Origin: Akkermansia massiliensis | Lineage (GTDB): Bacteria > Verrucomicrobiota > Verrucomicrobiia > Verrucomicrobiales > Akkermansiaceae | Direction: 5' to 3' | DNA: 64,000 bases | Assembly: GCF_023516715.1 (NCBI RefSeq) | Contig: NZ_JAMGSI010000001.1 | Coordinates: forward strand, 62,001 to 126,000 | Shown here: positions 33,290 to 62,085 of the stretch, piece after piece | Numbering within the stretch: position 1 is the stretch's first letter | Layout: each line of letters begins with the position of its first letter | Program-made: the position numbers and the translations under genes | The notes under the pieces: generated by a model | The model's input: the letters and a program-made list of their open reading frames with translations, nothing else | What the model was told of the DNA's origin: nothing | The model's database searches: none

Positions 33290-35881
33290 ATGGAACCCGC
33301 TTCTTCCCGCCCGGTATTGACGTCTCTGGCGTCTGTTGCGTTCGCCCTGGCTGTTCTGTTCCTGTTCCTGGCGGTGCGCGGAATTTGGCCGCTTGGCGGC
33401 CATTACCTGGAATACATGGATAACGGGCAGATGGTGTATCCCACCTTGAAATATTATGCCTCCGCTCTGATGACCGGAGCGTTGGACGGGTCCTTCTTTT
33501 ATGATGTCAATGGAGGAGCGGGCATCCGCGTGAGCCCCTCCCTGCCGCACCAGCTGCTGGTTCCCTCCACCTGGATTGTGGTGGCGATGGGAGACTCCTT
33601 TCTGTTGAAGGACATGGTATGGGTGATGCTGGCGGACGCGGCCTGCATCTGCCTGACGGCTTCCTGGTTTCTGAGACGCGTCTTCCCCTCCCTGCCCGTA
33701 TGCTGGACCGTGCTGCTGACGGCGGGTTATGCCCTGGGGGGATTTTTCCAGACCAAGTACGGGTTCATGCAGTTCCTGGACCACGCCGCCATGTTCCCCC
33801 TGTTTGCCCTGGGCCTTTACCAGCTGGTGAACGGAGGGAGGGGGTGGCTGTATGCCGTCGGCCTCTTTCTGCTGGCTACCTCCATGTACAGCGCTTTCAT
33901 GGCCGTCGTGACCGGCTGGCTGTTCGCGTGGGCCTTCACGCTTCCCCTGAAAGGGACGGCAGAACGCCGCGTCCGGCTGGCGCGCGTGTTCTGGTACACG
34001 GCGGCGGTGACGCTGGCGACCTGCTATTACTGGCTGCCCATGATGGAGATGAGCCGGGATTCCATGCGGTCCCTGTTCATGACTCCCCCCACTTTTTTTG
34101 AACTGTCCTGGCCGTTTGACCCTCCCAAATTCCTGGAACGCCTGTATTCCTGCCTGCCGGGAATGGCGTGCACCGCTTTGGCTGCCGTCTATCTGGTTTA
34201 CGGGAGGAAGGAGGCCCCGCCGGCGAACAAGGGGAGGCGGCTGTTTCTTCTCCTGCTGGCGGCGTCCGTGCTCCCTGCGTTCATTGAACCCCTTCACCGC
34301 GCCGCCCATCTGTGGAGCTACGTGGATTTTCCGGTCCGGTTCGGGTTCATTCCCAATCTGGTGGTGGCGTCGTTCTGCGCCTGGATCCTGTCCGGCGGGA
34401 GGCTGCCGCAGCCGGCGGGGCGGCGCTGGGGCTGGGGATGGAGCCTTGGCCTTCCCGTGGCGGCGTTTGCCGTCTCCCTGATTGTCCTTCACGTGACGGA
34501 TATGGACCTGGTGGCGCGCCTTCTGCCTCTGCTGTTTTTTTCATGCGCGTGGCTGTGCTGGCGGCATGCGGAAGGCAAAAGGCTGGGGTGGTCCATAGCC
34601 GCCGTGATTCTGCTGGGGCTGCCCGTGGGGGCTGCCGCGTTCTGGAAGCAGGGAGAAGAGGAAAAGGCCGCTGTACTGGCCCTGAATGCGGAATGGCTGG
34701 CGCGCGGAATGGACGGGTACGCCGGGCTTCTGCGCGTGAAAGACAGGGACCGCCTGCTGGTGGACAACGCGGATTGCCTGGGGCCTGTCCCGAGCATCGG
34801 CAACTTCCGGCATACCACGAGCATCAGCCATTTCCGTTTTCTGAAAAACCTGGGGTACCGGGATGAATTCACGCGCACGTATGGTCAGGGGGGTACCCTG
34901 TTTTCCGATCTGCTGCTGGGCCATGGCTTTTTGCTGGCGTCCCGTCCCGTGGAAGGAATGGAGAGCGTGCTTTCCCGGGAAGGCATGTATTTATACAGGC
35001 TTCCGGGCGCCCGCTGGGGGCTGGTGGTTCCCCAGAGCGCGCTGGGGCTGCGGCTGGATGCGGAAGCCGGCGTGTTCAGCAATCTCAATGCCCTGCATGC
35101 CGCGCTTTGCCCGTCAGCGGAAGGCCCCCTGTATGCTCCCGTGGAAGTGCGGACGGAGAGGAATGGCAACTTTTACCGGATGAGCGTGCCGGAATATCCC
35201 GGCGCGGTGTACGGCTTCCCGCAGACGGATACGGAGGAACTCCGCGTCAATGGCCGCGCGGTGCCCGTCATGGCGGAAGCGCAGAAGGCCCCCGGCGGGA
35301 CGTGCCGCACCTATAATGGAGCATTGGAATTAAAGCGTGCGGGTGTAACCGGGGAAACCGTGGTGGAGGGAAGGATGCGGCGGCTGGTGGAGGCTCCTCT
35401 TCTGGCGGCTGCGGCGCGAATGCCGGAGCAGGATGTTCCGGTTCTGGGGAAAGGCCAGGATCAATACGGGTTGGAGGCGCACGGACGCGGAGGCCATGTG
35501 GAAGTGTCCCTCTCTGCCGGAAAGGGGGAGGCGCTGATGGTTCCGGTGGTGCATGACCGTGGATGGAAGGCCACGCGGAACGGGGTGGACGTGCCCGTGG
35601 AAAAGGTGGGGGAATTGATGGCGGTGCGCCTTCAGGAGGGGCGGAACAGGGTGGTGTTTGATTATTATCCGCCTCTGTTGAAAGAATCTCTGTTTGTTTC
35701 AGCCGGAACGGCTCTGCTTTTTCTGCTGTATGCGTGGTGGGCGCGGCGGCATCCGGAATCCCAGCTCAGAAGGATGGTACTGGCCTGTGGATACAGGCTC
35801 TTTCTGTGTTGCGCCGCCGTGGTGCTGGCGGCCGTTTATGTGGGGTCCGTCGTGTTGTTTGTGGTGCAGTCCATGCTGTAA
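33290..35881 (+). CDS. YfhO-family integral membrane protein
   Basis: An 863-residue protein with about a dozen hydrophobic helices between residues 10 and 450, an external beta-rich domain (about 460-800), and two final helices. The plan matches the YfhO family: an early YMDNGQMVYPTLKYYASAL loop, the GGAGIRVSPSLPHQLL segment, and a C-terminal 'VPVVHDRGWKATRNGVDVPVEKV' with FDYYPP. Gram-positive relatives take part in sugar decoration of lipoteichoic acids and are seen as GT-C-type glycosyltransferases. By analogy this one may modify a surface glycan; that is inference. Confidence 0.82.
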   Translation: MEPASSRPVLTSLASVAFALAVLFLFLAVRGIWPLGGHYLEYMDNGQMVYPTLKYYASALMTGALDGSFFYDVNGGAGIRVSPSLPHQLLVPSTWIVVAMGDSFLLKDMVWVMLADAACICLTASWFLRRVFPSLPVCWTVLLTAGYALGGFFQTKYGFMQFLDHAAMFPLFALGLYQLVNGGRGWLYAVGLFLLATSMYSAFMAVVTGWLFAWAFTLPLKGTAERRVRLARVFWYTAAVTLATCYYWLPMMEMSRDSMRSLFMTPPTFFELSWPFDPPKFLERLYSCLPGMACTALAAVYLVYGRKEAPPANKGRRLFLLLLAASVLPAFIEPLHRAAHLWSYVDFPVRFGFIPNLVVASFCAWILSGGRLPQPAGRRWGWGWSLGLPVAAFAVSLIVLHVTDMDLVARLLPLLFFSCAWLCWRHAEGKRLGWSIAAVILLGLPVGAAAFWKQGEEEKAAVLALNAEWLARGMDGYAGLLRVKDRDRLLVDNADCLGPVPSIGNFRHTTSISHFRFLKNLGYRDEFTRTYGQGGTLFSDLLLGHGFLLASRPVEGMESVLSREGMYLYRLPGARWGLVVPQSALGLRLDAEAGVFSNLNALHAALCPSAEGPLYAPVEVRTERNGNFYRMSVPEYPGAVYGFPQTDTEELRVNGRAVPVMAEAQKAPGGTCRTYNGALELKRAGVTGETVVEGRMRRLVEAPLLAAAARMPEQDVPVLGKGQDQYGLEAHGRGGHVEVSLSAGKGEALMVPVVHDRGWKATRNGVDVPVEKVGELMAVRLQEGRNRVVFDYYPPLLKESLFVSAGTALLFLLYAWWARRHPESQLRRMVLACGYRLFLCCAAVVLAAVYVGSVVLFVVQSML

Positions 35882-35934
35882 CGGTTTCCGGGGAATGGAG
35901 AAAGCCGCCTTCAGCCGGTTCATGTACAGGATTT

Positions 35935-36296
35935 GACCGCTCCTGGCGGTCCCGGGAAGCGTTGCGGGAAGACGGGTAAAACAGCGTGATTGAAGCAGTG
36001 GGGCCGGAAACGTATACGTTCCGTGGATTGTTTTCCATGCTGGGAAAGGTGACGGGGCCCGTCGTCCGGTTTTGCCCGTTCCTCCGTGGGCCGCCTATGC
36101 CGCCGTCGGCATCATGGGGATGCTTCATCGTGACGTGATGCTGACCAGGGATGAAATCCTCGGGCTGATGGAGGACAGGCCCTGCGTTGAAGGCATTCCG
36201 CCTGCCGGCTCCATCCGGCTTTCCGCAGGGGCGGAAAAGCATGCCGCGGATTTGGGAAAAGCTTATGCTTGTGAAATGTCCCGGAGGAATTGTTGA
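35935..36296 (+). pseudogene. Remnant of an NAD(P)-dependent sugar epimerase/dehydratase-like protein
   Basis: Two frames carry pieces of the C-terminal part of this SDR family. After a TAA at 35977 the first reads NSVIEAVGPETYTFRGLFSMLGK, matching the typical '(V/I)EAVGPETFTYREL' of these proteins. The second, from 36072, reads GMLHRDVMLTRDEILGLMED and then PPAGSIRLSAGAEKHA to a stop, matching the usual C-terminus. At least one stop and one frameshift (about 36065-36075) interrupt it, and the NAD-binding N-terminus is missing. The gene is therefore decayed and truncated. Confidence 0.7.
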
Positions 36297-36583
36297 TGAT
36301 GAAATTAATGACTTAAAAACGGCTTAGACTATTTCTCGCGGAGTCAAGTTCGATGTCGTTGACATCTTCTACGTTTATTTCCAATGAATTAATTTTCAAC
36401 AAACCGGGGGGGAGGAAGCGTGTTCCTCTTTTCAGGGGTTCATTTTTAGTTTAGTTATTTTTCAGCAGACTGGGCCGGTTTCGTTGAACTGGATCTGTAC
36501 CAGTGGCTCAGTCATCTTTTTTGCGCTCCTTGGCAATTAGACTTAACAATTGACTTTTTACGTGTTTATTTTACTATTTTTTT
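36297..36583. other. A+T-rich spacer with the promoter of the secreted-protein operon
   Basis: No gene is visible. A small inverted repeat GATGTC-gtt-GACATC lies at 36352-36366, and the promoter described below is at its end. Confidence 0.5.
36550..36577 (+). promoter_or_regulatory. Putative promoter, leaderless geometry
   Basis: TTGACT (36550-36555), a 16-base spacer and TACTAT (36572-36577). The ATG at 36584 is exactly seven bases past the -10 box, where transcription would begin. No Shine-Dalgarno sequence is present. Confidence 0.5.
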
Positions 36584-39085
36584 ATGTTTCTGATTGTTAG
36601 ATCTTATTTATTTATTTGGATCTATTGTTTTTTATACATGGGCATTCCTTCAAATGGCGGAGAATTGCCTGCTTGTCCAGCTTCCTTTATTACGTCTATC
36701 GTTTGCAACCGTTCAGGAGATATTTGGGTTGCGACGGAAGGGAAGGGATTGATGCGCTTGCCATACGGAGGGGAAAAATGGGAGCAGCAAAAAGGAAACG
36801 GGCTGCCTGATACAACAAATTTCTATGCTCTTCTCGAAGACAGGCAGGGGCGTATCTGGGTGGGGACAGACAATAAAGGAGTGGCTGTGTGGAATGGGAA
36901 ATCATGGCAACAGTACAACCAGTCAAATGCCTTGCCGGGGGAGAGGATCTTCGCCATGGCTGTATCTCCTGTCAGTGGAGATGTGGCTATTGCTACTTCC
37001 GGCGGCCTGACTGTTTATCAACCGGAAACGGAATCATGGAAAGATTACACAAGGGCGGAAGGTTTGCCGGAGGACCAGATTGCTTCTCTCTCCTTTGATC
37101 GAAAAGGAACTCTTTGGGCAGCTTTTCAAACTTCCGGAGTGGCTTCAGCAGAACCTTCCAACGGATATTCACGGTGGAATGTAGTGCAGACAAAGTGGTA
37201 TTGGGATACGCTGCAGAGAGTTCGCCAACCATTTGAAGCCAGAGGGAAAGGCCTGCCTTCAAATTTTTGCAACGCGATTTGTGCCGAATCGGGCTGGATT
37301 TGGGTAGGCACCAATTCCGGACTCGGGTACTCTAAAAATAAAACAGACTGGAACTTTCTGAGGGGCAGGGACTATGGGGCGAAAAATGAAGGACTATGGA
37401 AACCGGATGAGAAAACGTCTGTCCGGCATGCTCAAAAACTCTTGAAAATGAACCGTAGGGAAAACAATGACGATTCTCTTTTGCCGGAGGATTATATCAC
37501 CTGTTTTTATCCGTCTTCCCAAGGGATGTGGATAGGATTCAGGGAAAAGGGCGTTTCTTTTGTGCGGAAAAATTTACAAAAAATTCAGACTGTGGATATG
37601 CCCTGTGACGATGAAGTGGAAAAATTGGTCAGCGTGACCAGTTTTGCTTCTCTGCCGGATGGCAGCTTGTATGCCGGAACGTATGGAAAAGGATTATTGC
37701 ATTTGGGCCATGTAGAGAGAAAACGGATTTTCCCGTTGAATGATGTGAAGCATCCTTCTTTCCCGGGCATTGGACAACTGTCGGAACTTTTAAAAACCAG
37801 GACAGCAATTGATGGAATGAAAAAAACAAATCCCCCTGCAAAAGCCCTTTTCTGGTATGAAGACTGGGCTACCCGGGGCGACTGGTGCGAACGCTATGGA
37901 CGGAGTTACATGCTCCTGTGCGGAGCTGCCGGTCCTATGGGTTCCGTCCTTGAGGCTTTTGACAATGCATACAGATGCGAATCCGTCAAGGGTCCACACG
38001 TCAAAGTGGGTGAAAGCGGTGTATCCGGAAAAGTTATCTGGGAAAATGAACGGGGTGACGAAAACATCCTTTACTGCCCCATCAGCACGACCAGAACGCT
38101 TGCCCGGTGGAGTGACCGGGGAGAATCCGTAGACAGAGACTTTGACGGTCCGGACCTTGGCGTGCTGATTCAGGTTCCGGACAAAAAACAGCTCCTCTCC
38201 TTTTATTTTTATGATCCAACCCCGCTTGCCGACAATGATCTGGACAACAGCCTCAAGGATTACATACTCGAAATCAGAAAACTACCTGCCAATTTTGATT
38301 TTGACTCCTTCCTGGGACTTGGAAAAGAGGAGGAAGTTCAGGAAGAAGACTTATTCCGGGAACCTTCCTATGACGGGCTTAAGGATTACATACCCCTGCC
38401 TGTTCTGGCGCGAAGCAGGGTTAAATCATTTGCCGGATGTGGAGTTTACAAGAATTTCATCGTCGAAGGCTCAGGGTGGTACTACGTCAGAATATTGAAA
38501 AACTACTCAGTTTCTACAACCCTCAACGGAGTATTTATCTCATCCCTGGACGAAACGAAAATTGCTGTCGACAAACTCCTGGAAAGACTAAATCAAAAAT
38601 CATTCTACTATGGGCTTTGCATACCATCTCCCCCTCCTTTGAACTCCGAGCAGGCAAGTAAACTTTCTTCTAGCCTCTTAAAATTATGGGCTGCCAGCCA
38701 AGACATGAGGCTGTTAAACGGGAAAGAAATCTTCTCATCAAGAAAACTTGGAATTTATGCCTACAGACACCTTCTTGCTACCCAGGCTCCAGATGAAATC
38801 AAAAAGAACTGGAGATGGAGACTGAAAATATGGGAAACGGAGGACAGGAAGGACTTCCGGCAACAAATGAAAAAAGCGTGGGCCAGTTTGCAGGATACGG
38901 TCTATTTCTACAGATCTTCTGAATGGGCTACATTCGCGCCGGATACCACCATTCCCTTTTCAGTCGATGAAGTCAGAAAAATGTCCGCTTTGAAAATTGA
39001 TTGGAAACAGTATTTGCCGGGTTCAAACAAGAAACCGGAACTTGACGTTCAACAAATGAAAGAATGGTTAAAGAATAAAAAATAA
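36584..39085 (+). CDS. Secreted seven-bladed propeller protein with C-terminal unknown domains
   Basis: An 833-residue protein with a hydrophobic N-terminus (residues 2-18) that looks like a signal peptide. Residues 35-380 hold about seven repeats of the 'regulator propeller' type: GDIWVATEGKGL, GRIWVGTDNKGV, GDVAIATSGGL, GTLWAAFQTSGV, GWIWVGTNSGL, GMWIGFREKGV and GSLYAGTYGKGL. Two regions follow: one with EDWATRGDWCERYGRSYMLL (about 430-600), seen in planctomycete/verrucomicrobial secreted proteins as far as I recall, and a charged helical end. No histidine kinase part is present, unlike in hybrid sensors. Its stop codon overlaps the next start (TAATG). Lower GC than neighbours. Confidence 0.8.
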   Translation: MFLIVRSYLFIWIYCFLYMGIPSNGGELPACPASFITSIVCNRSGDIWVATEGKGLMRLPYGGEKWEQQKGNGLPDTTNFYALLEDRQGRIWVGTDNKGVAVWNGKSWQQYNQSNALPGERIFAMAVSPVSGDVAIATSGGLTVYQPETESWKDYTRAEGLPEDQIASLSFDRKGTLWAAFQTSGVASAEPSNGYSRWNVVQTKWYWDTLQRVRQPFEARGKGLPSNFCNAICAESGWIWVGTNSGLGYSKNKTDWNFLRGRDYGAKNEGLWKPDEKTSVRHAQKLLKMNRRENNDDSLLPEDYITCFYPSSQGMWIGFREKGVSFVRKNLQKIQTVDMPCDDEVEKLVSVTSFASLPDGSLYAGTYGKGLLHLGHVERKRIFPLNDVKHPSFPGIGQLSELLKTRTAIDGMKKTNPPAKALFWYEDWATRGDWCERYGRSYMLLCGAAGPMGSVLEAFDNAYRCESVKGPHVKVGESGVSGKVIWENERGDENILYCPISTTRTLARWSDRGESVDRDFDGPDLGVLIQVPDKKQLLSFYFYDPTPLADNDLDNSLKDYILEIRKLPANFDFDSFLGLGKEEEVQEEDLFREPSYDGLKDYIPLPVLARSRVKSFAGCGVYKNFIVEGSGWYYVRILKNYSVSTTLNGVFISSLDETKIAVDKLLERLNQKSFYYGLCIPSPPPLNSEQASKLSSSLLKLWAASQDMRLLNGKEIFSSRKLGIYAYRHLLATQAPDEIKKNWRWRLKIWETEDRKDFRQQMKKAWASLQDTVYFYRSSEWATFAPDTTIPFSVDEVRKMSALKIDWKQYLPGSNKKPELDVQQMKEWLKNKK

Positions 39086-40530
39086 TGAGCATTAAATTAT
39101 TTACTGCCATCTTCTTGCCGGCATTACTGTTTCATCTGATGCCGTTACACGCGGCGGAGGATTACAAGTGCGAAGTAAAAATAACTCCTGGCGAGAATGT
39201 CGCCATGTCCGAAGATGGGGATAAAGCCATACTGGACAAGCAGGAAGGCAAAGTTTACAAATTTAAAGCTGTTGCCAAATTTACTCCTGACTCAGAACAG
39301 GAATGGGTAGAATACCGATATGGTAAAACAAGAAAGTATATATGGGAACCTGCGCCAATCATGACGAGCGACCCTCCCAGGGGAAAGGGAGGATTTTCTT
39401 CTACGGGAATTTGCTCTCCCAGTGAAGAATACTGGGGAACTGAATTCAAGGTCAAAGTTAAGGTGAACATGGGGGTGGTCGGTCCAAAGAGAAAAAGAGA
39501 GGTGGCCGAAGATGAAATGGATGCCATAGCTCCGTTAATTCAAATACAGTTCGCCAAGTTCAGGGAAAATGCCGGGGGCAATGGTTTCACCATTCACGAT
39601 CAATTCAGAGGGAAGCCTGTTCCGGTTCCGGAATTCAAAAGGGAGGATAAAACACCGGATGACGATAAATCACCCGTAGGGTACTATGCAGGGGATATTC
39701 CTTCCTTTACTGTCACCTTCAAGGCGCTGCCGGACTCCATGAAAACAATCAAGGCAACGTGCACCGACGGAATATTTGCCTCTGAAGCAACTGAATTGTC
39801 CATTGCCAATGGAAAAGCCGAGGGTGTCGTCACCGCCAAGGAAGCCGTGGAGAGAAAATGCCGGGGACGCGCAGAAAATGCATCCTGGAGTTTCTCTGTT
39901 CTGGGAGTGAAGTTATCCGCCAAGGAACAAATGACCATCAGCAAATGCTATGTTCTTCTTGACAGGGGTAATCTGGACAAGCCTTGGAAAACCCTGCTGA
40001 AAACAGCTTTTGGGAAGTGGAACTTCAGCGGAGCGACCACCCATGATCAGCTTATGGACAGGCTTAGTCGCGGTATATCCAACAGTGCTTCTTATTACGA
40101 TGAATGGAACCCGGAAGTGGGAAAAACCGGCTCCCTGTATGTGGATCAGAAACAAAACCCCATGCCCTTGTCGGTAGCCGGAATGGTAGATGCCATCGAC
40201 AAAGGAACGGCAAAAATCATCTGTGTGGAAGCTGCCGGTCTTATGGAATATTCTGCGTCGGTTCTCGGCTCGGGCGGAGTCAGTTCCAGAGGAGTCGGGT
40301 GGACGGAAACTAGAAAAACAACAAACGCACAAGGACAGGAGGAGACAAAATCCTGGCGCTCCGGCCATGCCTGGTGCCTTTATGGAGGTAAAGTACATAA
40401 CCCTGTTCCCTACAATGCAGGTCCTACCAACAAATCGGAAAGTGATTACATAAAAGACGATTTGAAATCCGATGAAAACAGGAGTAATTTTACCGAACCT
40501 GGCGGCTGCTACTTCTCATTTAACAAATAA
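39085..40530 (+). CDS. Secreted protein with a transglutaminase-like C-terminal domain
   Basis: A 481-residue protein with a signal peptide (MSIKLFTAIFLPALLFHLMPLHA). The N-terminal two thirds are beta-rich and unrecognised. The last 110 residues carry a possible cysteine-hydrolase core: Cys380 in KIICVEAAGLMEYSASVLG, His428 in SGHAWCLYGG, and Asn439 in VHNP. The order, the spacing and the His-Ala-Trp motif fit the transglutaminase-like fold, where an Asp or Asn completes the triad. The function could be peptide cleavage or crosslinking outside the cell. It shares one base with the preceding gene, so translation is coupled. Confidence 0.72.
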   Translation: MSIKLFTAIFLPALLFHLMPLHAAEDYKCEVKITPGENVAMSEDGDKAILDKQEGKVYKFKAVAKFTPDSEQEWVEYRYGKTRKYIWEPAPIMTSDPPRGKGGFSSTGICSPSEEYWGTEFKVKVKVNMGVVGPKRKREVAEDEMDAIAPLIQIQFAKFRENAGGNGFTIHDQFRGKPVPVPEFKREDKTPDDDKSPVGYYAGDIPSFTVTFKALPDSMKTIKATCTDGIFASEATELSIANGKAEGVVTAKEAVERKCRGRAENASWSFSVLGVKLSAKEQMTISKCYVLLDRGNLDKPWKTLLKTAFGKWNFSGATTHDQLMDRLSRGISNSASYYDEWNPEVGKTGSLYVDQKQNPMPLSVAGMVDAIDKGTAKIICVEAAGLMEYSASVLGSGGVSSRGVGWTETRKTTNAQGQEETKSWRSGHAWCLYGGKVHNPVPYNAGPTNKSESDYIKDDLKSDENRSNFTEPGGCYFSFNK

Positions 40531-40535
40531 CCATC

Positions 40536-41963
40536 ATGACTTGCACGCACAGTATGAAAATTCTCCCCTTTTTCTTCATTGCCGTAACCCTCATAGGGCA
40601 GATTCTTCATGGGGCGCCTGTTGCAGGGAATGACCTGTATCCCGGCCAAACAGTCTGGGAAATAAAACCGGCCGCAGTATGGAACCAGACCACCATAAAA
40701 TCCAATCCTGCTGAGCGCAAGGCCCGTCTGTATAACCTGTATGAGGAAATTAAACCAGGCGGGAATCCTGTTCCTGGACAGTCCGAGGCGGCAAAAGACA
40801 TGGAAGGGCTCAATATATCTCAGTACTACCTGGGATGGGACTATGAGCAGAATTACTGGGTCATTGTCGATATCATGGGAAACGTCTACATGGCCGTCAA
40901 AATGTTCTACTCCCCAAACCCCGTCTACAGTCGTCAGAAAGCAGTAGATGAAATGCTTGTCTCACAAAAACAGGGACCTCCGGTCAACCGTAACCGTGAA
41001 TACCGATGGACCATGTTTGGTGACGGTATAAAAATGGCATTTCTGCAAGTCCCGTTTATTTTAGACGAAGATAAAAAATTATGTGGGGAATTCTTTGCAG
41101 AACAGGAGGGGTTTTCCCTCATTGCCGCTGACCACTGGTTCTTTCCGCTTATTAGAAAAGAGCTTAAGGATAAAGAACTTTTTGAAATATCAGAGACCAT
41201 ACTCGCCGCACTTAATGGAAAACGCCAATTCGGGTATTTTCCGAAAAGGACGCGGCAGGCGGTGAAAAAGTGGAAGGATATTTCAAAGATGCCTTATCAA
41301 AAGAGGACCAGGCATGAAGAAGAATTAAGGAAATTAACAAAAGGCATGCCCGAGGGCTTATACGACAGGATTGATCGGAATGCTCGTGAGCTGCAACGGA
41401 ATGATAATATTCTCAACCTGAATATGCCGGACGGGAACGAAGACAAGGGGCCTGAAATGATACCCAATATTAATAGCGGCATCGGAACGGTGCGCTGGCT
41501 CAAGAAGCACGTAAATATCCCTTTTATTGCGGAAAAAGGTCATGACGAATCTCATATCAACGGATGTTCCGGTACTTTTAGCGTGAACAAGAATGGACGG
41601 GATTATCCCGTCACCTACACGATTCTGCATCTTCATACGAAAGACCAGGCCTTGAGAGCGATGTTCGCGATGCAGGCGGAGCAATCAAAACAACTTATCA
41701 AGCCGGATATCCTGAAAAAAATCCTGCAGGTACATCCCGGTCTGGTGGGAGATTACGATGTCTGCCTCAAACCGGTAATCAATGAATTGGGAGTCCCCGT
41801 ACCCCAGGGAGAATACTCCTCAATTAGTTTCATACGGGGTAATACGGCCGTTATGCTGAAAAACGAGACGATGGATATTTCCGTTTTGCCATTGGCAAAA
41901 CAAATGGACGAAGCTTTGCTTAAGAATATGCAGTTGTTCATGAAACCCGAAGAAACACGGTAG
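40536..41963 (+). CDS. Secreted protein of unknown function
   Basis: A 475-residue protein; Met7 (40554) gives a cleaner signal peptide (MKILPFFFIAVTLIGQILHG). No known domain was recognised. The first half has an aromatic-rich stretch (YYLGWDYEQNYWVIVDIMG). The middle is basic and helical (about 225-290), and the end is a mixed alpha/beta part with two cysteines (INGCSGTF and YDVCLK). It follows the transglutaminase-like gene by 5 bp in the same lower-GC operon. The three proteins probably work together outside the cytoplasm. No terminator was found after it. Confidence 0.7.
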   Translation: MTCTHSMKILPFFFIAVTLIGQILHGAPVAGNDLYPGQTVWEIKPAAVWNQTTIKSNPAERKARLYNLYEEIKPGGNPVPGQSEAAKDMEGLNISQYYLGWDYEQNYWVIVDIMGNVYMAVKMFYSPNPVYSRQKAVDEMLVSQKQGPPVNRNREYRWTMFGDGIKMAFLQVPFILDEDKKLCGEFFAEQEGFSLIAADHWFFPLIRKELKDKELFEISETILAALNGKRQFGYFPKRTRQAVKKWKDISKMPYQKRTRHEEELRKLTKGMPEGLYDRIDRNARELQRNDNILNLNMPDGNEDKGPEMIPNINSGIGTVRWLKKHVNIPFIAEKGHDESHINGCSGTFSVNKNGRDYPVTYTILHLHTKDQALRAMFAMQAEQSKQLIKPDILKKILQVHPGLVGDYDVCLKPVINELGVPVPQGEYSSISFIRGNTAVMLKNETMDISVLPLAKQMDEALLKNMQLFMKPEETR

Positions 41964-42642
41964 GTTTCTTGTGATTGAAATTTAATTGCTTAGCGAATAT
42001 TGGCAAAATAGCTCAAGTTTGGAAGTGCGTCGATTGGTGATTCGAGTCCGGGTAATGGGAAGAAGCGCCAAAGAAATAACGCAGCCCTATGATGTTAAAA
42101 GGAACCACTTTATACAATCTGCCCAAACGATGCAGGGAAATAGGGAAGTGTAACCGCATTTCCCAGGTTGTAACCCGGTTCCGGATTCAGAAGGGCTTTT
42201 AGTTGCGGAAAAACTTGTCTGATGCCCGCTCTTTTTCCTGATGCCGTTGCCGTTATGGGTAACTTGAGAAGTGACAGGGATTGATGAAATGATGCGATTA
42301 GTGGGAACCGGCAGTGCTTTATCTTTTTTAGAGTCCTGCCTTGACTCCCATGGAGGAAATGTGGTCCAGGGTTAATTTTTTGTGTGTCAAGCCAAAGCTT
42401 GTTCCCGGTGTTGTTGAGGGGAGTTTTACCTGCTTTTTTTCTGCTATTCGCATGAAGACATTCCTGAGCGGTTCAAACATGATGGTTATTCTTGGTTATA
42501 GTTAATTTGCTGTAAAGCGTATCAAGTCTTCGTGCAGCGGGAACGGCTCCGTTCCCTTTTCAATGTTGATGGGTTGACGTGAAAAGGCTTTCCGTTTTTG
42601 AAGGATGGTTGACAGGGGAATCTGGCGCGGTAGAGTGGTTTC
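41964..42642. other. Gene-free stretch of about 680 bp with a tRNA-like remnant
   Basis: No convincing gene. At 42009-42029 TAGCTCAAGTTTGGAAGTGCG resembles a tRNA D arm, and at 42036-42049 GGTGATTCGAGTCC resembles a T arm, but the anticodon arm is missing between them. The ispG promoter is at the end. Confidence 0.5.
42609..42636 (+). promoter_or_regulatory. Putative ispG promoter, leaderless geometry
   Basis: TTGACA (42609-42614), a 16-base spacer and TAGAGT (42631-42636). The ATG at 42643 lies where transcription should start. Confidence 0.55.
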
Positions 42643-57200: not shown

Positions 57201-59887
57201 CTATTTGTGAGGGATTGGATGCTGACTTCGAATATACATATACATTAGTCTCCAGAACGGACAGTGCCCTGCAATCTTTGGAGTCAGTCGTTATGAGGGA
57301 GAGGCTACCGGAATACCGTTCCATTTGGGAAAAAGTTTACAATGAAAACGGTAATATACGTGTTCTAAGGGGACGGAAGGGATGTGACAGGGAAGAGGAA
57401 GAAGTCATCCTGAACGGGGATACCGTACGCCTGATACAAATAGATGGGACAATGACCCAGTACAAGCGTACTTACAGTATGACCGGAGATATGCTTACAA
57501 TCCGCGATGCCCGTGGTAAAGACATGACCATCGTCAACGATGCCACAGGAAGGGAAACAAGCCGAACGGACCAGGACGGAGAGACGACTACTACCTCCTA
57601 TGATGCGGTTACAGGGCTGGCAAATTGTATTGTAACTCCTGATGGCAAGCAGACATGGTTTTCCTATGATTTTCGTGGACGCTTAGTGCAGCAGTATGGA
57701 ACGGCTGTCCAGCCCATCAAATGGGAATATGATGCCATGGACCGTATTGTGGCTCTGCATACCTATCGTGCATCAGGATCTGTTCTGGATGCGATTCCAT
57801 CCTCGGATTCCGATATCACACGCTGGACTTATGACCCTGTGAGTGGACTTGTGGTGAATAAGACTTATGCGGATGGTTCCATGACTTCGTATTACCATGA
57901 TGACTGGGGGCGTCTGGGAACTCGTATCCAGTCCCGCGGAGTGACGACGGAATACCAGTATGATACTGTATCAGGAAAAATAGCTTCTATAACGCATAGT
58001 GATGGAACTCCGTCTGTGTCATTTTCCTATGATAGGATGGATCGGTTATCTTCCGTCCAGGATGCATCCGGAACACGTTCCTTTTACTATTGGGATCTTG
58101 AAGATATTGCCTACGAACAAACTTCTGGCATGGTAGCAAGCCTGCTTGAGTACCAGCGTGATTCTTTGGATCGTTCGTCCGGATATACGTTTTCTCTGAA
58201 TGGAACAATGGTACAGCAGGTCGCTCTGGAATATGATGTCGCAGACCGCCTTTCTGCAATGTCGCTTAATGGTTCATCCTTTACGTATGGATATGATTCG
58301 GCTACGGGCTGGCTCAACAGTTTGACCTATCCGAATGGATTGGTTAGAAACACAGTGTTTCATGCCAATCTTCCTTTGCCGGTGTCCCTGACTTACGTGA
58401 AGGGAACTTCCTCCATTCCTGCGCTCAAGCACGCCTATACGTGGGACAGTATGCGGCGTCCTTCCGTACGGGAAGACTATGTGGGTTCAACTGCTCTTTC
58501 CCGTCGCCACACATATGGCTACAATGCACGAGGGGAATTGACGGAAGACACCATGAACGCGGGAGGAGCCTTCAGCTATGACTATGACAATATCGGCAAC
58601 CGCCAGACGGCGGCAGAACAAGGCATTTCCAGTACCTATCGAAGCAATAGTTTGAACCAGTATGCTACTGTGACACATTCAGGAACAGCCTTCGCACCTG
58701 TGTATGACTCTGACGGTAATCAAACGAGTGTGAACACTTCCACAGGAATATGGTCTGTCCAGTATAATGCGGACAATCGTCCGGTGGTCTTTACACAGGG
58801 AAGCAAAAAGGTGGAATGTGTGTATGACTATCTTGGTCGACGTGTGGAAAAAGTGGAATATGATGGAAATAACTTGACCAGACGTACAAGATTCGCGTAT
58901 ATGGGATATCTAATGGTGGCAAGCATGGACTGCACGCAAAATACCTCCAATCCGCCCTTGCTGGGTACGTGGTTTTGGGATCCCTCTGAATCGGAGTCGA
59001 CACGGGTATTGGCGATGTGCACGCACAATGCGGACAAGAGCGTGGCCACCACCCGTTATGTGGCGCATGACCTGCTCAAAAGCGTAAGCGCTCTGTTTGA
59101 CTCCTCGGGAAACCGTCAGGCGAAGTTTGAATACACGCCCTACGGAGAAACCTTGAGTTCGGAAGGAATTAAGACCGCGTCTATGCCATTCCTTTATTCC
59201 TGCGAGTACCATGACGAAGACTTAGGTTTAATTTACTACAATTACCGCCATTACAATCCACAAGATGGTCGCTGGATATCCAGAGATCCGATTGGAGAAA
59301 AAGGTGGTGTCCATTTATATGGATTTGTAAAAAATAATCCTGTATTAATTAGTGAGTATCTAGGTCTGTCTTTTTCTTCCAGAGAAGAACGGTATGGAGA
59401 TGGTTGCGTTTTAACACAGGACCCTAGTGATATTACAGTGACTGAGGAGTTTGCTGGAACACGGGAAACCGAAAGATATGTACGTAAAGTGTCTGAAGCA
59501 GTAATTGAAAAGCACACTAAACGTCCTAAACTTGTAAAAACCGCAGTTAAAGGATTAGATGCTTTAGGGATGTCTTTCACTACGGCGGCACCCTTTTTGC
59601 TTTCTTTACAGGTGAACGTAAAAGTAGAATTTACATGTAGGTGTAAATGCAAGTGTGAAGGTTGGTTAAAAAATGCGCTGTATGGAGAAGCAATTGCTCC
59701 AATGACAGGTTCATTTACAATTAATAGCAGAACCTTTGGTAACGGGAATCCATATACTGACGGATTGGGATCTATCAACAAGATACCAAAAAAAGAGGAA
59801 ATTGAAGAAAAGAAACAAGAAGAATTCAATAAACTTTTTTCGTCAAAATTAAAAGAATGTGAAGAGAAATGTAAAAAGTTAAGATAA
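54293..59887 (+). CDS. RHS-repeat polymorphic toxin
   Basis: About 1,865 residues from the ATG giving MKEIDNQLSTPEQSGG; an ATG at 54242 lies inside a strong hairpin. No signal peptide is visible. After an N-terminal region of about 430 residues come many RHS/YD repeats of the form 'YDxxGRxxxxT' (for example YDLLGRVTSRTDKMGR, YDYLGRRVEKVEYDG). The core closes with LGLIYYNYRHYNPQDGRWISRDPIGEKGG and LYGFVKNNP. The last 172 residues (from about 59370) are a different, A+T-rich tip with a Cys/Lys motif CRCKCKCEGW and a Lys/Glu-rich helical end. The shell should encapsulate and deliver this tip as a toxin. Its activity is not recognisable. Confidence 0.9.
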   Translation: MKEIDNQLSTPEQSGGMPSHPVTFVSNDEPSPMPWPNTWYPVTPIGPETEYPCPCSEGDSGTGSTDNNSVDFSIEFGRFPKWPELSGGRLMLNLNMMDAGLCWGTAFQYEHISQRRLEVAETLNASISRPEEPEDVSRAVVKTEKGFPRYYSFASPNVSGAEVLGGSQMFQDRMRRVVVDGVSYLEEVQESGMTMRFRPNSAIFDHIVTPRGVKITFAELAAELKVVRQDAYDEPGTAVETFNSLSLFMLKQVWNKTDGLLDLSNVQSIRWYAPADVTGRHNDGTYIIRKGAVPIKTWKLSWSFADTETMVARAVDEENPEVTQMLLQTFRIEEPGGFISEWRAGLYPDDLTLVKGEGDDAISIVTRCLPAPGHENLVAKDINGQAMVAGGYYTDKKEKFKYVYSGVAGTEHAVLCSAEKEVYQRRLYGDVLISRTEGYGTPLERTWTYGYGSDPSSPNYGKRIRETRPDGAVVEMEYDSNGNVIQRTEPWYGDISMRTSYSYADELFNDRRISQELVELVSPQRTECLEKTQYEYNKTEQVYSKTATRTYLGSTNVGVLNSVTTVEEWYTAHDCVYAPGRLKCRYQYENVQDVDNPDIVNNGEARNISRREYSTCSDYGAVWKCTEDDYIDVADSEKSSRIIRYYAENGDEIATDHQVHLYSPGFVSIDFRRMSYDPSHRLIRTDYANGLYSMMEWSCAGPLWETDVRGLQTRYTYDGAKRLVCVERDAAVAVENWNDVDMNADCPDSITETTYDGMGRILSVSHSIGDRKTTVSSQYDLLGRVTSRTDKMGRTSLYSYSQDGLTMTETTSPGATLVTRKAPSGLVVEESGTGREARYYEYKADWSGIWKYIRRLSSSGDMIENILENADGKILRILHSNGAVMVDQYNAEYNGFGQIVCEQQKNECPLWYHYNNRGELTGWMRSWNDWPDNSPYRYSVVSRYTRLSFPPPGLSASAVNAVWRMDYVQAICEGLDADFEYTYTLVSRTDSALQSLESVVMRERLPEYRSIWEKVYNENGNIRVLRGRKGCDREEEEVILNGDTVRLIQIDGTMTQYKRTYSMTGDMLTIRDARGKDMTIVNDATGRETSRTDQDGETTTTSYDAVTGLANCIVTPDGKQTWFSYDFRGRLVQQYGTAVQPIKWEYDAMDRIVALHTYRASGSVLDAIPSSDSDITRWTYDPVSGLVVNKTYADGSMTSYYHDDWGRLGTRIQSRGVTTEYQYDTVSGKIASITHSDGTPSVSFSYDRMDRLSSVQDASGTRSFYYWDLEDIAYEQTSGMVASLLEYQRDSLDRSSGYTFSLNGTMVQQVALEYDVADRLSAMSLNGSSFTYGYDSATGWLNSLTYPNGLVRNTVFHANLPLPVSLTYVKGTSSIPALKHAYTWDSMRRPSVREDYVGSTALSRRHTYGYNARGELTEDTMNAGGAFSYDYDNIGNRQTAAEQGISSTYRSNSLNQYATVTHSGTAFAPVYDSDGNQTSVNTSTGIWSVQYNADNRPVVFTQGSKKVECVYDYLGRRVEKVEYDGNNLTRRTRFAYMGYLMVASMDCTQNTSNPPLLGTWFWDPSESESTRVLAMCTHNADKSVATTRYVAHDLLKSVSALFDSSGNRQAKFEYTPYGETLSSEGIKTASMPFLYSCEYHDEDLGLIYYNYRHYNPQDGRWISRDPIGEKGGVHLYGFVKNNPVLISEYLGLSFSSREERYGDGCVLTQDPSDITVTEEFAGTRETERYVRKVSEAVIEKHTKRPKLVKTAVKGLDALGMSFTTAAPFLLSLQVNVKVEFTCRCKCKCEGWLKNALYGEAIAPMTGSFTINSRTFGNGNPYTDGLGSINKIPKKEEIEEKKQEEFNKLFSSKLKECEEKCKKLR

Positions 59888-59893
59888 ACTAGC

Positions 59894-60442
59894 ATGAAAT
59901 GTAATATAAGTAAATATTTTTTATGGAGTGCAACAGGGGTGCTTTTCGTTGCAAATATTGTTTGGAGTATAATTTTTCTTTCAACCCAGAATTCTGTATG
60001 TGATCCGGAACAGGATGATATACAAATGTGTCAGGAACAAATAGACCGACTTTCCTATATTATTTCATTATCTGCTGAAATGGCAGTATTGAGGAAAGAA
60101 AAGGGTGATATGAAGGAGCTTGAAATTCTCTTACGGCAAATTGTAGATCAGATAACTGCTAATGTCATAGCAAATTCCATCTATGAATTTGATGGAAAAG
60201 GCTTAGTGAAATTTGACTTAATGAATAAAATATTTAAAGGATTAGTAGATGCCGGCTTGATTGATCCGGAAATATTGCAAAGTCCATTAGGCATTTATGA
60301 AGATGCAAAAAATCATAAAATAATACATAACTTGTATTCTTTCAATGGTAATACTGTTAAAAAAACTATGACGGTGGATGAATGTAAAAATTTTCAGAAA
60401 TGGTTTTATGATAAAATAGTGAATCAAGTTGAGAAGGATTAG
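59894..60442 (+). CDS. Candidate immunity protein for the RHS tip
   Basis: A 182-residue protein starting 6 bp after the RHS stop. A membrane helix (residues 8-31, FLWSATGVLFVANIVWSIIFLS) anchors a soluble, mostly helical domain with acidic patches. The composition is strongly A+T-rich, like the toxin tip and unlike the RHS shell, which fits joint transfer of the pair. Location and size match immunity genes of polymorphic toxins. If the membrane anchor is real, the tip may act in or near the membrane or periplasm. No family was recognised. Confidence 0.65.
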   Translation: MKCNISKYFLWSATGVLFVANIVWSIIFLSTQNSVCDPEQDDIQMCQEQIDRLSYIISLSAEMAVLRKEKGDMKELEILLRQIVDQITANVIANSIYEFDGKGLVKFDLMNKIFKGLVDAGLIDPEILQSPLGIYEDAKNHKIIHNLYSFNGNTVKKTMTVDECKNFQKWFYDKIVNQVEKD

Positions 60443-60471
60443 TTTTAGTTTTTATTGACTTTACATCATTT

Positions 60472-60513
60472 AATGAGGTTGTTTTATCAAATTAAAGCAA
60501 CCTCATTTTTTTT
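60472..60513 (+). terminator. Rho-independent terminator of the RHS-immunity unit
   Basis: AATGAGGTTG (60472-60481) pairs with CAACCTCATT (60498-60507), with eight T at 60506-60513. It lies 30 bp after the immunity stop. Confidence 0.9.
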
Positions 60514-60554
60514 AATATCTAAGAGTAACACTGAATGTAGAAATGATCCAAGCT

Positions 60555-60626
60555 ATGGCAATGCAATTTCGCTATTCCTGTGAATGCTATAACGAGAATT
60601 TGGGCTTAATATACTACATTAACTAA
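60555..60626 (+). pseudogene. Fragment of an RHS core end
   Basis: This short frame reads MAMQFRYSCECYNENLGLIYYIN and stops. It matches the end of the intact RHS core (MPFLYSCEYHDEDLGLIYYNY). It is a broken, displaced copy and marks where an older toxin tip joined. Confidence 0.75.
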
Positions 60627-61025
60627 TATATTGATTCTACTGTGTTATTTGATTACTGGCACTCATTTCAGTTCATCTATAGGTTTTGATGTTTTTAGTT
60701 ATCCGTAATATCAGTATCTCAGCAGATAGTACAGATGTGCTAGACAGCAATAAAAAGGAGCGATGGGACAAGACGTACAAATATACTTAGGTAGATCATT
60801 TGGGATTTAAATGCTAACGCAGATGGGATCCCTCAAGAGAGACAAATAGACTAAAGTAGCTACACGCTAGGGAAATTGGAAAATATAAATCCTTCTAAAT
60901 TTGTAGAAAATTCCTCTTCTTCTTGAAGTAAGTTTCTCGTATTTAAGAGAATAACTGGTTATCGGCCGGATGAATCGACAATACAAAATATGAAATTCGA
61001 AGGTTGATTTTCAGAAAAGAAATAA
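60627..61025. other. Degraded A+T-rich sequence
   Basis: No open frame of useful length on either strand. It probably holds the rest of a decayed RHS tip; beyond position and composition nothing shows this. Confidence 0.4.
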
Positions 61026-61184
61026 CGGTCAATATGCCGGGAAAATTATGCAAGGTCAGATTCAACGGAGCAATATATTGATGCAGTCGTAGATGCCGTT
61101 CTTAATATGTATAAGGATAAAAGTAAAATTACTGTTGATAAAAGAGATTGCGATATCATATCTTTATCTAAGTTTTTAATATAA
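61026..61184 (+). pseudogene. Remnant of a small gene, perhaps an old immunity gene
   Basis: The frame encodes ENYARSDSTEQYIDAVVDAV followed by a short Lys/Asp-rich end and a stop, but it has no usable start codon and a TAA just upstream. A clear terminator lies 14 bp beyond, so it is likely the 3' end of a once functional gene behind the broken RHS tip. Confidence 0.4.
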
Positions 61185-61197
61185 AGTAAATTATACG

Positions 61198-61224
61198 CCG
61201 AGGTACATATGTGCCTCGGTTTTT
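61198..61224 (+). terminator. Rho-independent terminator
   Basis: CCGAGGTACA and TGTGCCTCGG form a 10-bp stem (one G-U pair) at 61198-61219, then five T. It closes the decayed unit upstream. Confidence 0.85.
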
Positions 61225-61464
61225 GTTCATAGGGAGCTCAGTTGATGGGAACGAGCATGGATTGCCTGTCCTACACCTCCAATTCATTTTTATTTGGCAG
61301 ACAGCTTTGGAGCTTTCTGAACTGGGGGTAAAGCGGGGTTTGGGGTGCAAGGTACAACGCGAACAGGGAAGAAAAGGCAAGTGGTGCCTAATGTTATTCC
61401 AGGGGCTACGGGTTATTGGCCATTGTGTCAGGATAGACTATCAATGCTATTGGAAGAGAGGGAG

Positions 61465-61738
61465 ATGAGTATCGATTCCCTTTTTAAATGGTGCTGCCTT
61501 TTGAGGAGAGCTGTTTTTGTCCTATTGCCTGTGGTCTTGTGCATGGGATGGTATATATGGACTTCATGGAAGGATTGGTTTCGCTGGCATGGGTCCGATA
61601 TTTGAAGCGTTTCTTCCGGGGAGCGAATCGTGTGTGAAGATTGAGGACTATTCACGGAAAGCCTGTTTGGTTCTTGAAAAGCGAAGAGGCTTTCGCTGTC
61701 TGTTTTTAAAATGGTTTGAGGTTCTTTCTGCTTGTTAG
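61465..61738 (+). pseudogene. Possible frameshifted small membrane protein
   Basis: The first frame, from an ATG preceded by GGAAGAGAGGGAG, gives MSIDSLFKWCCLLRRAVFVL and a hydrophobic helix up to WFRWHGSDI, then a stop at 61605. The next frame continues with FEAFLPGSESCVKIEDYSRK to 61738. The two parts could be one protein of about 90 residues broken by a frameshift. No family was recognised, so this is tentative. Confidence 0.3.
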
Positions 61739-62085
61739 GAAAGAATGTTTTTTTACTTTGGGTGAAAGTGGCCGCGAATAGAAAAAGCAGCTTGACCTGC
61801 CTTCTCCGATTGACTATAGGGAGGGGCCAAGTGGAAGCTCCCTTAGAAAGCTCTCTTGAGACTGTCTATAAAGGATTGCCGGTTTTTTAAATGCCGGGAG
61901 GGGAGGAAAGGTCTGCTGCGCAGGATTCTTCATGAACGCCAGAAGCGTTCCAGATATGGAATATTTTGCTTTTTTTCTTTATTGCATAGTTTTCTAATAT
62001 TGCTTTTTTTGATGAAGTTGCGCTGTTTTCTAACATTTTTATTCTAGGCCCGTTTGATTTTATATATATAGTTTTTGGATATTGT
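61739..62085. other. Non-coding A+T-rich spacer
   Basis: Short frames only. T-rich stretches and small hairpins are present, but no structure strong enough to name. Confidence 0.45.

Follow-up and report, generated by a model that had tools for sequence, protein, structure and literature searches.

A cassette exchanged across a gene boundary couples a transglutaminase-like hydrolase candidate to its downstream partner in Akkermansia, a putative exported toxin-immunity pair

Introduction

What do three tightly packed genes for exported proteins do together when none of the library models accounts for them as a set? This question is raised by an operon, here called A-B-C, in a 64,000-nucleotide stretch (the window) of contig NZ_JAMGSI010000001.1 from Akkermansia massiliensis, whose genome (G000; genomes carry G numbers and loci L numbers throughout) measures 3.28 megabases. 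The three genes are:

36584..39085, + strand: gene A, 833 amino acids (aa), a seven-bladed-type Reg_prop propeller with conserved C-terminal domains of unknown fold (open reading frame (ORF), Pfam, family alignment)
39085..40530, + strand: gene B, 481 aa, a conserved front part and a C-terminal transglutaminase-like domain, proposed toxin (ORF, family alignment, model)
40536..41963, + strand: gene C, 475 aa, two-domain, proposed immunity protein (ORF, adjacency to B)

The ORFs lie exactly where an earlier reading of the letters alone (the sequence-only reading) had placed them, with a TAATG overlap at the A/B junction, a gap of 5 base pairs (bp) between B and C, and hydrophobic leader-like N-termini on A, B and C as read by eye; its description of tightly packed genes for exported proteins thus holds, as does its statement that the set belongs to no recognised system. 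Neither B nor C matches any Pfam or NCBIfam model, and nine family proteins searched against PADLOC-DB gave no match to A, B or C at an expectation value (E) <=0.1. That reading did not consider a toxin-immunity relationship between B and C, to which the evidence assembled here points.

Akkermansia is a widely studied gut symbiont, and in the open-access literature searched we found no title or abstract describing a polymorphic toxin or toxin-immunity system in this genus. If the proposal is true, it would provide a testable mechanism by which Akkermansia strains and their relatives among the Verrucomicrobiota compete, together with two novel families of proteins and a specificity module that, unusually, spans a gene boundary.

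Results

A pattern of matched variation is evident when identity is compared along B and C among close relatives, at both the protein and the DNA level. In each of three groups (A. glycaniphila; G220/G247; and G004/G044 versus G046, a rabbit Akkermansia assembly), the front of B is 63-93% identical and the back half of C 81-99% identical, whereas the enzyme domain of B is only 19-51% and the front half of C only 25-48% identical. The boundaries are sharp in the DNA of the tandem pairs of G220, which are 95.2% identical to base 1021; no similarity is detectable over the next stretch of about 1 kilobase, which includes the end of B, and identity in the final 806 bp is 98.8%. The same conserved-variable-conserved layout is found in the DNA of A. 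glycaniphila; since this organism is an isolate, its layout is no binning artefact. Where one part of the block is conserved the other is too: G004 and G044 share both the enzyme domain and the C front, and for G220_2/G247 both are intermediate. Over the 12 closest pairs, enzyme-domain identity follows that of the C front with a rho of 0.91 and that of the C back with a rho of 0.56, values that are descriptive because the pairs are non-independent. The enzyme domain of B and the front domain of C are thus one exchangeable cassette that spans the gene boundary in related loci, and this matched exchange argues that the two domains would bind each other specifically.

The part of B that is exchanged carries the features of an enzyme:

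39982..40527, + strand: transglutaminase-like domain of B, residues 300-481 (AlphaFold model, structural comparison)
40222..40224, + strand: codon of Cys380, predicted nucleophile (invariant in 21 aligned B-family proteins and in A7)
40366..40368, + strand: codon of His428, predicted catalytic base (invariant in 21 aligned B-family proteins and in A7)
40399..40401, + strand: codon of Asn439, third position of the catalytic set; most relatives have Asp (alignment column Asp/Asn)

The AlphaFold model of B is poor for residues 1-298 and fair for the last domain, where the per-residue confidence (pLDDT) is about 60-85. This last domain matches transglutaminase 3 (1l9m; Z 10.3, 165 residues, root-mean-square deviation (rmsd) 4.5) and LapG (4fgq; Z 9.6, 135 residues, rmsd 3.8), and other transglutaminase-like enzymes are among its further matches. 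In the model Cys380 begins a helix (380-393) and His428 lies on a strand (419-433), both as the transglutaminase-like fold requires. By sequence, Transglut_core is reached by one B relative only (E 0.21), and a profile search of B against solved structures returned chance matches only. The sequence-only reading had suggested a transglutaminase-like cysteine hydrolase, and as a candidate this stands: the fold is given by the model, the Cys380/His428 pair is invariant, and the order Cys-His-Asp/Asn is kept, so that B is a transglutaminase-like cysteine hydrolase candidate whose activity is predicted. Pfam identifies no known trafficking domain in B, in which we see by eye a Sec-type leader followed by the region that lacks a confident model. 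In A. glycaniphila Pyt (G013), the loci L152-L154 encode a longer B in which a further block, at about residues 150-450 and well ahead of the enzyme domain, is variable too.

The partner protein is divided in a corresponding way:

40824..41213, + strand: C domain 1, residues ~97-226, co-varies with the B enzyme domain in relatives (model, identity profiles)
41562..41942, + strand: C domain 2, residues ~343-469, constant copy with an RGNTAV motif (model, alignments)

In the model of C (mean pLDDT 64.7) strands and helices occur in a similar succession in two places, ~97-226 and 343-469, and each half of the C profile is matched, with probabilities of 96.8% and 89.6%, by short relatives that have a single domain and are encoded after B in distant members of the phylum. 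From these two observations C seems to contain the same domain twice, the first copy variable and the second constant; a direct profile comparison of the halves did not detect the duplication (6%). A fold search with C gave a best Z of 6.8, with all matches below the usual noise level and thus too weak to name a fold; several of these weak matches are to structures that we take to be Mog1/PsbP-like. A profile search of C against solved structures likewise returned chance matches only.

The sequence-only reading had proposed that the triplet be sought elsewhere in the same order, and it recurs at a dozen loci of the genus (L033, L034, L038, L044 with A broken, L119, L120, L121, L125, L128, L129, L130 and L136), indicating more than a chance assembly; two genomes of another family in the same class have the order B-C-A (L139, L140). 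Among 24 B-C pairs, selected because both genes were recognised, C follows B directly in all 24, with a spacing of -71 to +25 bp. C also occurs beyond these pairs. Extra C genes stand in tandem at L039, L040, L128 and L136, lone C genes are found at L033:13057-14523 and at L137, and at L190:325-5506 four consecutive C-like genes split B, whose His/Asp C-terminal part is a separate downstream ORF. At L040 a short remnant of B lies directly upstream of the second C, which suggests a piece left when an older toxin tip was displaced.

Gene A, which matches Reg_prop (PF07494, E 7e-22 in Pfam) and whose family alignment has 10 members, behaves differently. No conserved-variable-conserved block was found along A. 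It is present in 19 of 76 genomes of the genus, as against 10 of 76 for C, and three of the four B-C loci of A. glycaniphila do without it; the wider spread of A and the existence of B-C loci without it make B-C the core and A an associate. The proposal of the sequence-only reading, in which the propeller serves as a binding platform for a joint activity of the set on a peptide or glycoprotein, therefore finds no support here: many A genes have no B-C, some B-C pairs have no A, and the coupled unit is B with C. We also considered the type IX secretion protein PorZ (NF052228) as an identity for A and rejected it, the score being 33.1 bits against a cut-off of 260.

A homologue of A is the sole Reg_prop protein of G040, which we take to be A. 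muciniphila. In the outer-membrane proteome of A. muciniphila a single such protein is named, Amuc_0371, a two-component regulator propeller protein that is more abundant on mucin (PMC4960237). Being the single Reg_prop protein of G040, the A homologue is probably Amuc_0371, which would then be a member of the A family that differs from the window gene in having no adjoining B or C; a 176-aa small protein comes next. Where B-C is missing, A is followed by small exported proteins, whose homology to the B front could not be established (a joint profile reached 75% probability over 66 columns, single proteins <40%). A second secreted family, with a Cys...His pattern that recalls transglutaminase-like enzymes, adjoins A genes mostly where B-C is missing:

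L034:10628-12376; L037:9975-11711; L043:9958-11334; L121:4195-6051; L122:10947-12809: second Cys...His secreted family beside A

G000 itself also carries a second A-B-C locus (L044:4704-13944; G000:C1 ~215700-224945), in which inserted genes, one of which resembles a transposase gene by eye, break A into three, and B and C are intact.

Discussion

The matched exchange of domains, together with the orphan and arrayed C genes, makes an exported toxin with an exported immunity protein the simplest account of these loci. We consider it rather probable that B is such a toxin and that C is its cognate immunity protein, binding the enzyme domain through C domain 1. The active part of B would be its C-terminal transglutaminase-like domain, with which it would harm rival cells, and the binding of C domain 1 to that domain would neutralise B and protect the producer. 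The Sec-type leaders seen by eye on both B and C suggest that B finds its substrate in the envelope or extracellularly, much as the periplasmic Tae/Tai pairs do, and A, whose family is probably represented in the A. muciniphila outer-membrane proteome, may display or anchor B as a surface partner. For the window pair itself this role is putative and read by homology to the loci that exchange. More tentatively, these loci may represent an antagonism system found across the Verrucomicrobiota and employed by Akkermansia as a gut symbiont, in which the tip of a Sec-exported toxin and C domain 1 form an exchangeable specificity cassette that reaches from one gene into the next, the B front and C domain 2 remain constant, and an outer-membrane propeller docks or delivers the toxin; we would put this wider picture at somewhat under an even chance.

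Several observations weigh against a toxin-immunity relationship. All of the variable tips keep one fold, while most polymorphic toxins exchange unrelated folds, and we identified no dedicated delivery machine. When all pairs are included, poor alignments among them, the correlation between enzyme domain and C front is weak (0.26), and the pair G046_c5/G000_L044 is a partial exception, with 46% identity in the enzyme domain and 87% in the C front. Between the window allele and those related to it (L034, G069) divergence is gradual, with no block swap, and beside several of the distant B genes no C can be recognised.

Known systems offer partial parallels. Polymorphic toxin systems include Tox-TGase and other papain-like toxin domains, as well as the Imm65 immunity family with its signal peptide and lipobox (Zhang et al. 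2012, PMC3482391). B resembles such toxins in the conserved front and variable enzyme tip of its relatives, and C resembles an immunity protein in lying directly downstream with extra copies, in being exchanged together with the tip, and in its orphan and arrayed occurrence. The differences are that the B tips are all of one fold, that the cassette ends inside C and so gives C a variable and a constant domain, and that B-C has no Pfam, NCBIfam or PADLOC match and no recognised delivery domain. Among immunity proteins, those of the gut Bacteroidales rAID clusters include dual-domain and orphan genes and diverge rapidly (PMC12247911), and they share with C the tandem domains in one protein, the orphan copies and the rapid divergence; there, however, SUKH domains act against effectors of the type VI secretion system (T6SS), whereas C is of no recognised family. 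A further analogy is with Tae/Tai. In these systems T6SS amidase effectors are paired with periplasmic immunity proteins, and the likeness to B-C as read here is that a cysteine hydrolase of papain-like type has a cognate immunity protein that is exported; B and C differ in both having Sec-type leaders, and no T6SS gene was seen at the B-C loci.

A toxin is not the only enzyme that may need a dedicated binding partner. Staphostatin prevents premature activity of staphopain, and protease-inhibitor operons, too, place the gene of a binding partner downstream of that of the enzyme. B could accordingly be a secreted protease, deamidase or cross-linker that acts on mucus or dietary protein, with C as its private inhibitor or folding partner and the diversity reflecting substrate range; the greater abundance of an A-family homologue in mucin-grown A. 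muciniphila, if this is Amuc_0371, would fit such a role. The sharp, matched swap of the cassette is unexpected from substrate adaptation alone, and orphan C genes and the array of four beside a split B fit immunity instead, so that we regard this explanation as possible, if unlikely.

The structural comparison itself raises a further explanation. LapG, a periplasmic transglutaminase-like protease, controls an adhesin together with its regulator LapD. The fold of LapG is one of those nearest to the last domain of B, and A often adjoins B-C, which would suit a periplasmic protease and its regulator governing a surface protein, perhaps A. Against this, three B-C loci of A. glycaniphila have no A, and A does not co-vary with the enzyme domain. 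C is an exported, two-domain protein in which we found no second-messenger domain and recognise no signalling domain, and cassette exchange is no part of LapG/LapD; the explanation is, in our judgement, quite improbable. Least probable is that the variable block reflects antigenic or receptor variation of surface proteins that are not toxins. Gene conversion between surface antigens also yields conserved-variable-conserved blocks, but here Cys and His are kept in every aligned B member and the two genes vary in step.

Insertion site and surroundings

The operon lies in a segment that is bounded as follows:

35886..36288, + strand: 3' remnant of a gene cut short, on the left border of the insert (DNA 73-81% identical to the last part of a gene that is longer in G004, G048 and G067)
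36289..42575, no strand: insert carrying A-B-C (blastn of flanks; absent at the same site in G040, G041, G043, G044, G045, G004, G048 and G067)

In G040, G041, G043, G044 and G045 the empty site consists of the left flank (to ~35875-35895), about 70-115 bp, and the right flank (from ~42552-42596). The block is thus an insertion relative to close relatives, in agreement with the sequence-only reading, which had taken it for acquired DNA; it is also A+T-richer than its surroundings, as had been said, A-B-C having a guanine-plus-cytosine (GC) content of 46.6% against 57.1% elsewhere in the window. Of the two flanks described there, the decayed epimerase is borne out as a truncated gene, longer in G004, G048 and G067 by blastn, its name resting on the earlier reader and the DNA match. 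The tRNA-like remnant near 42020-42060 drops out, as ARAGORN reports none there and Rfam none at E<=10.

B and C are present at the same site in G046, about 97% identical to the window outside a short deletion in B, and A has been lost; the insertion is therefore older than the split of G046 and the window species. C was found on neither any plasmid record nor any confirmed IMG/VR contig. Elsewhere in the window, at 59001-62000, the GC content drops to ~36%, far below that of the triplet and of the rest of the stretch.
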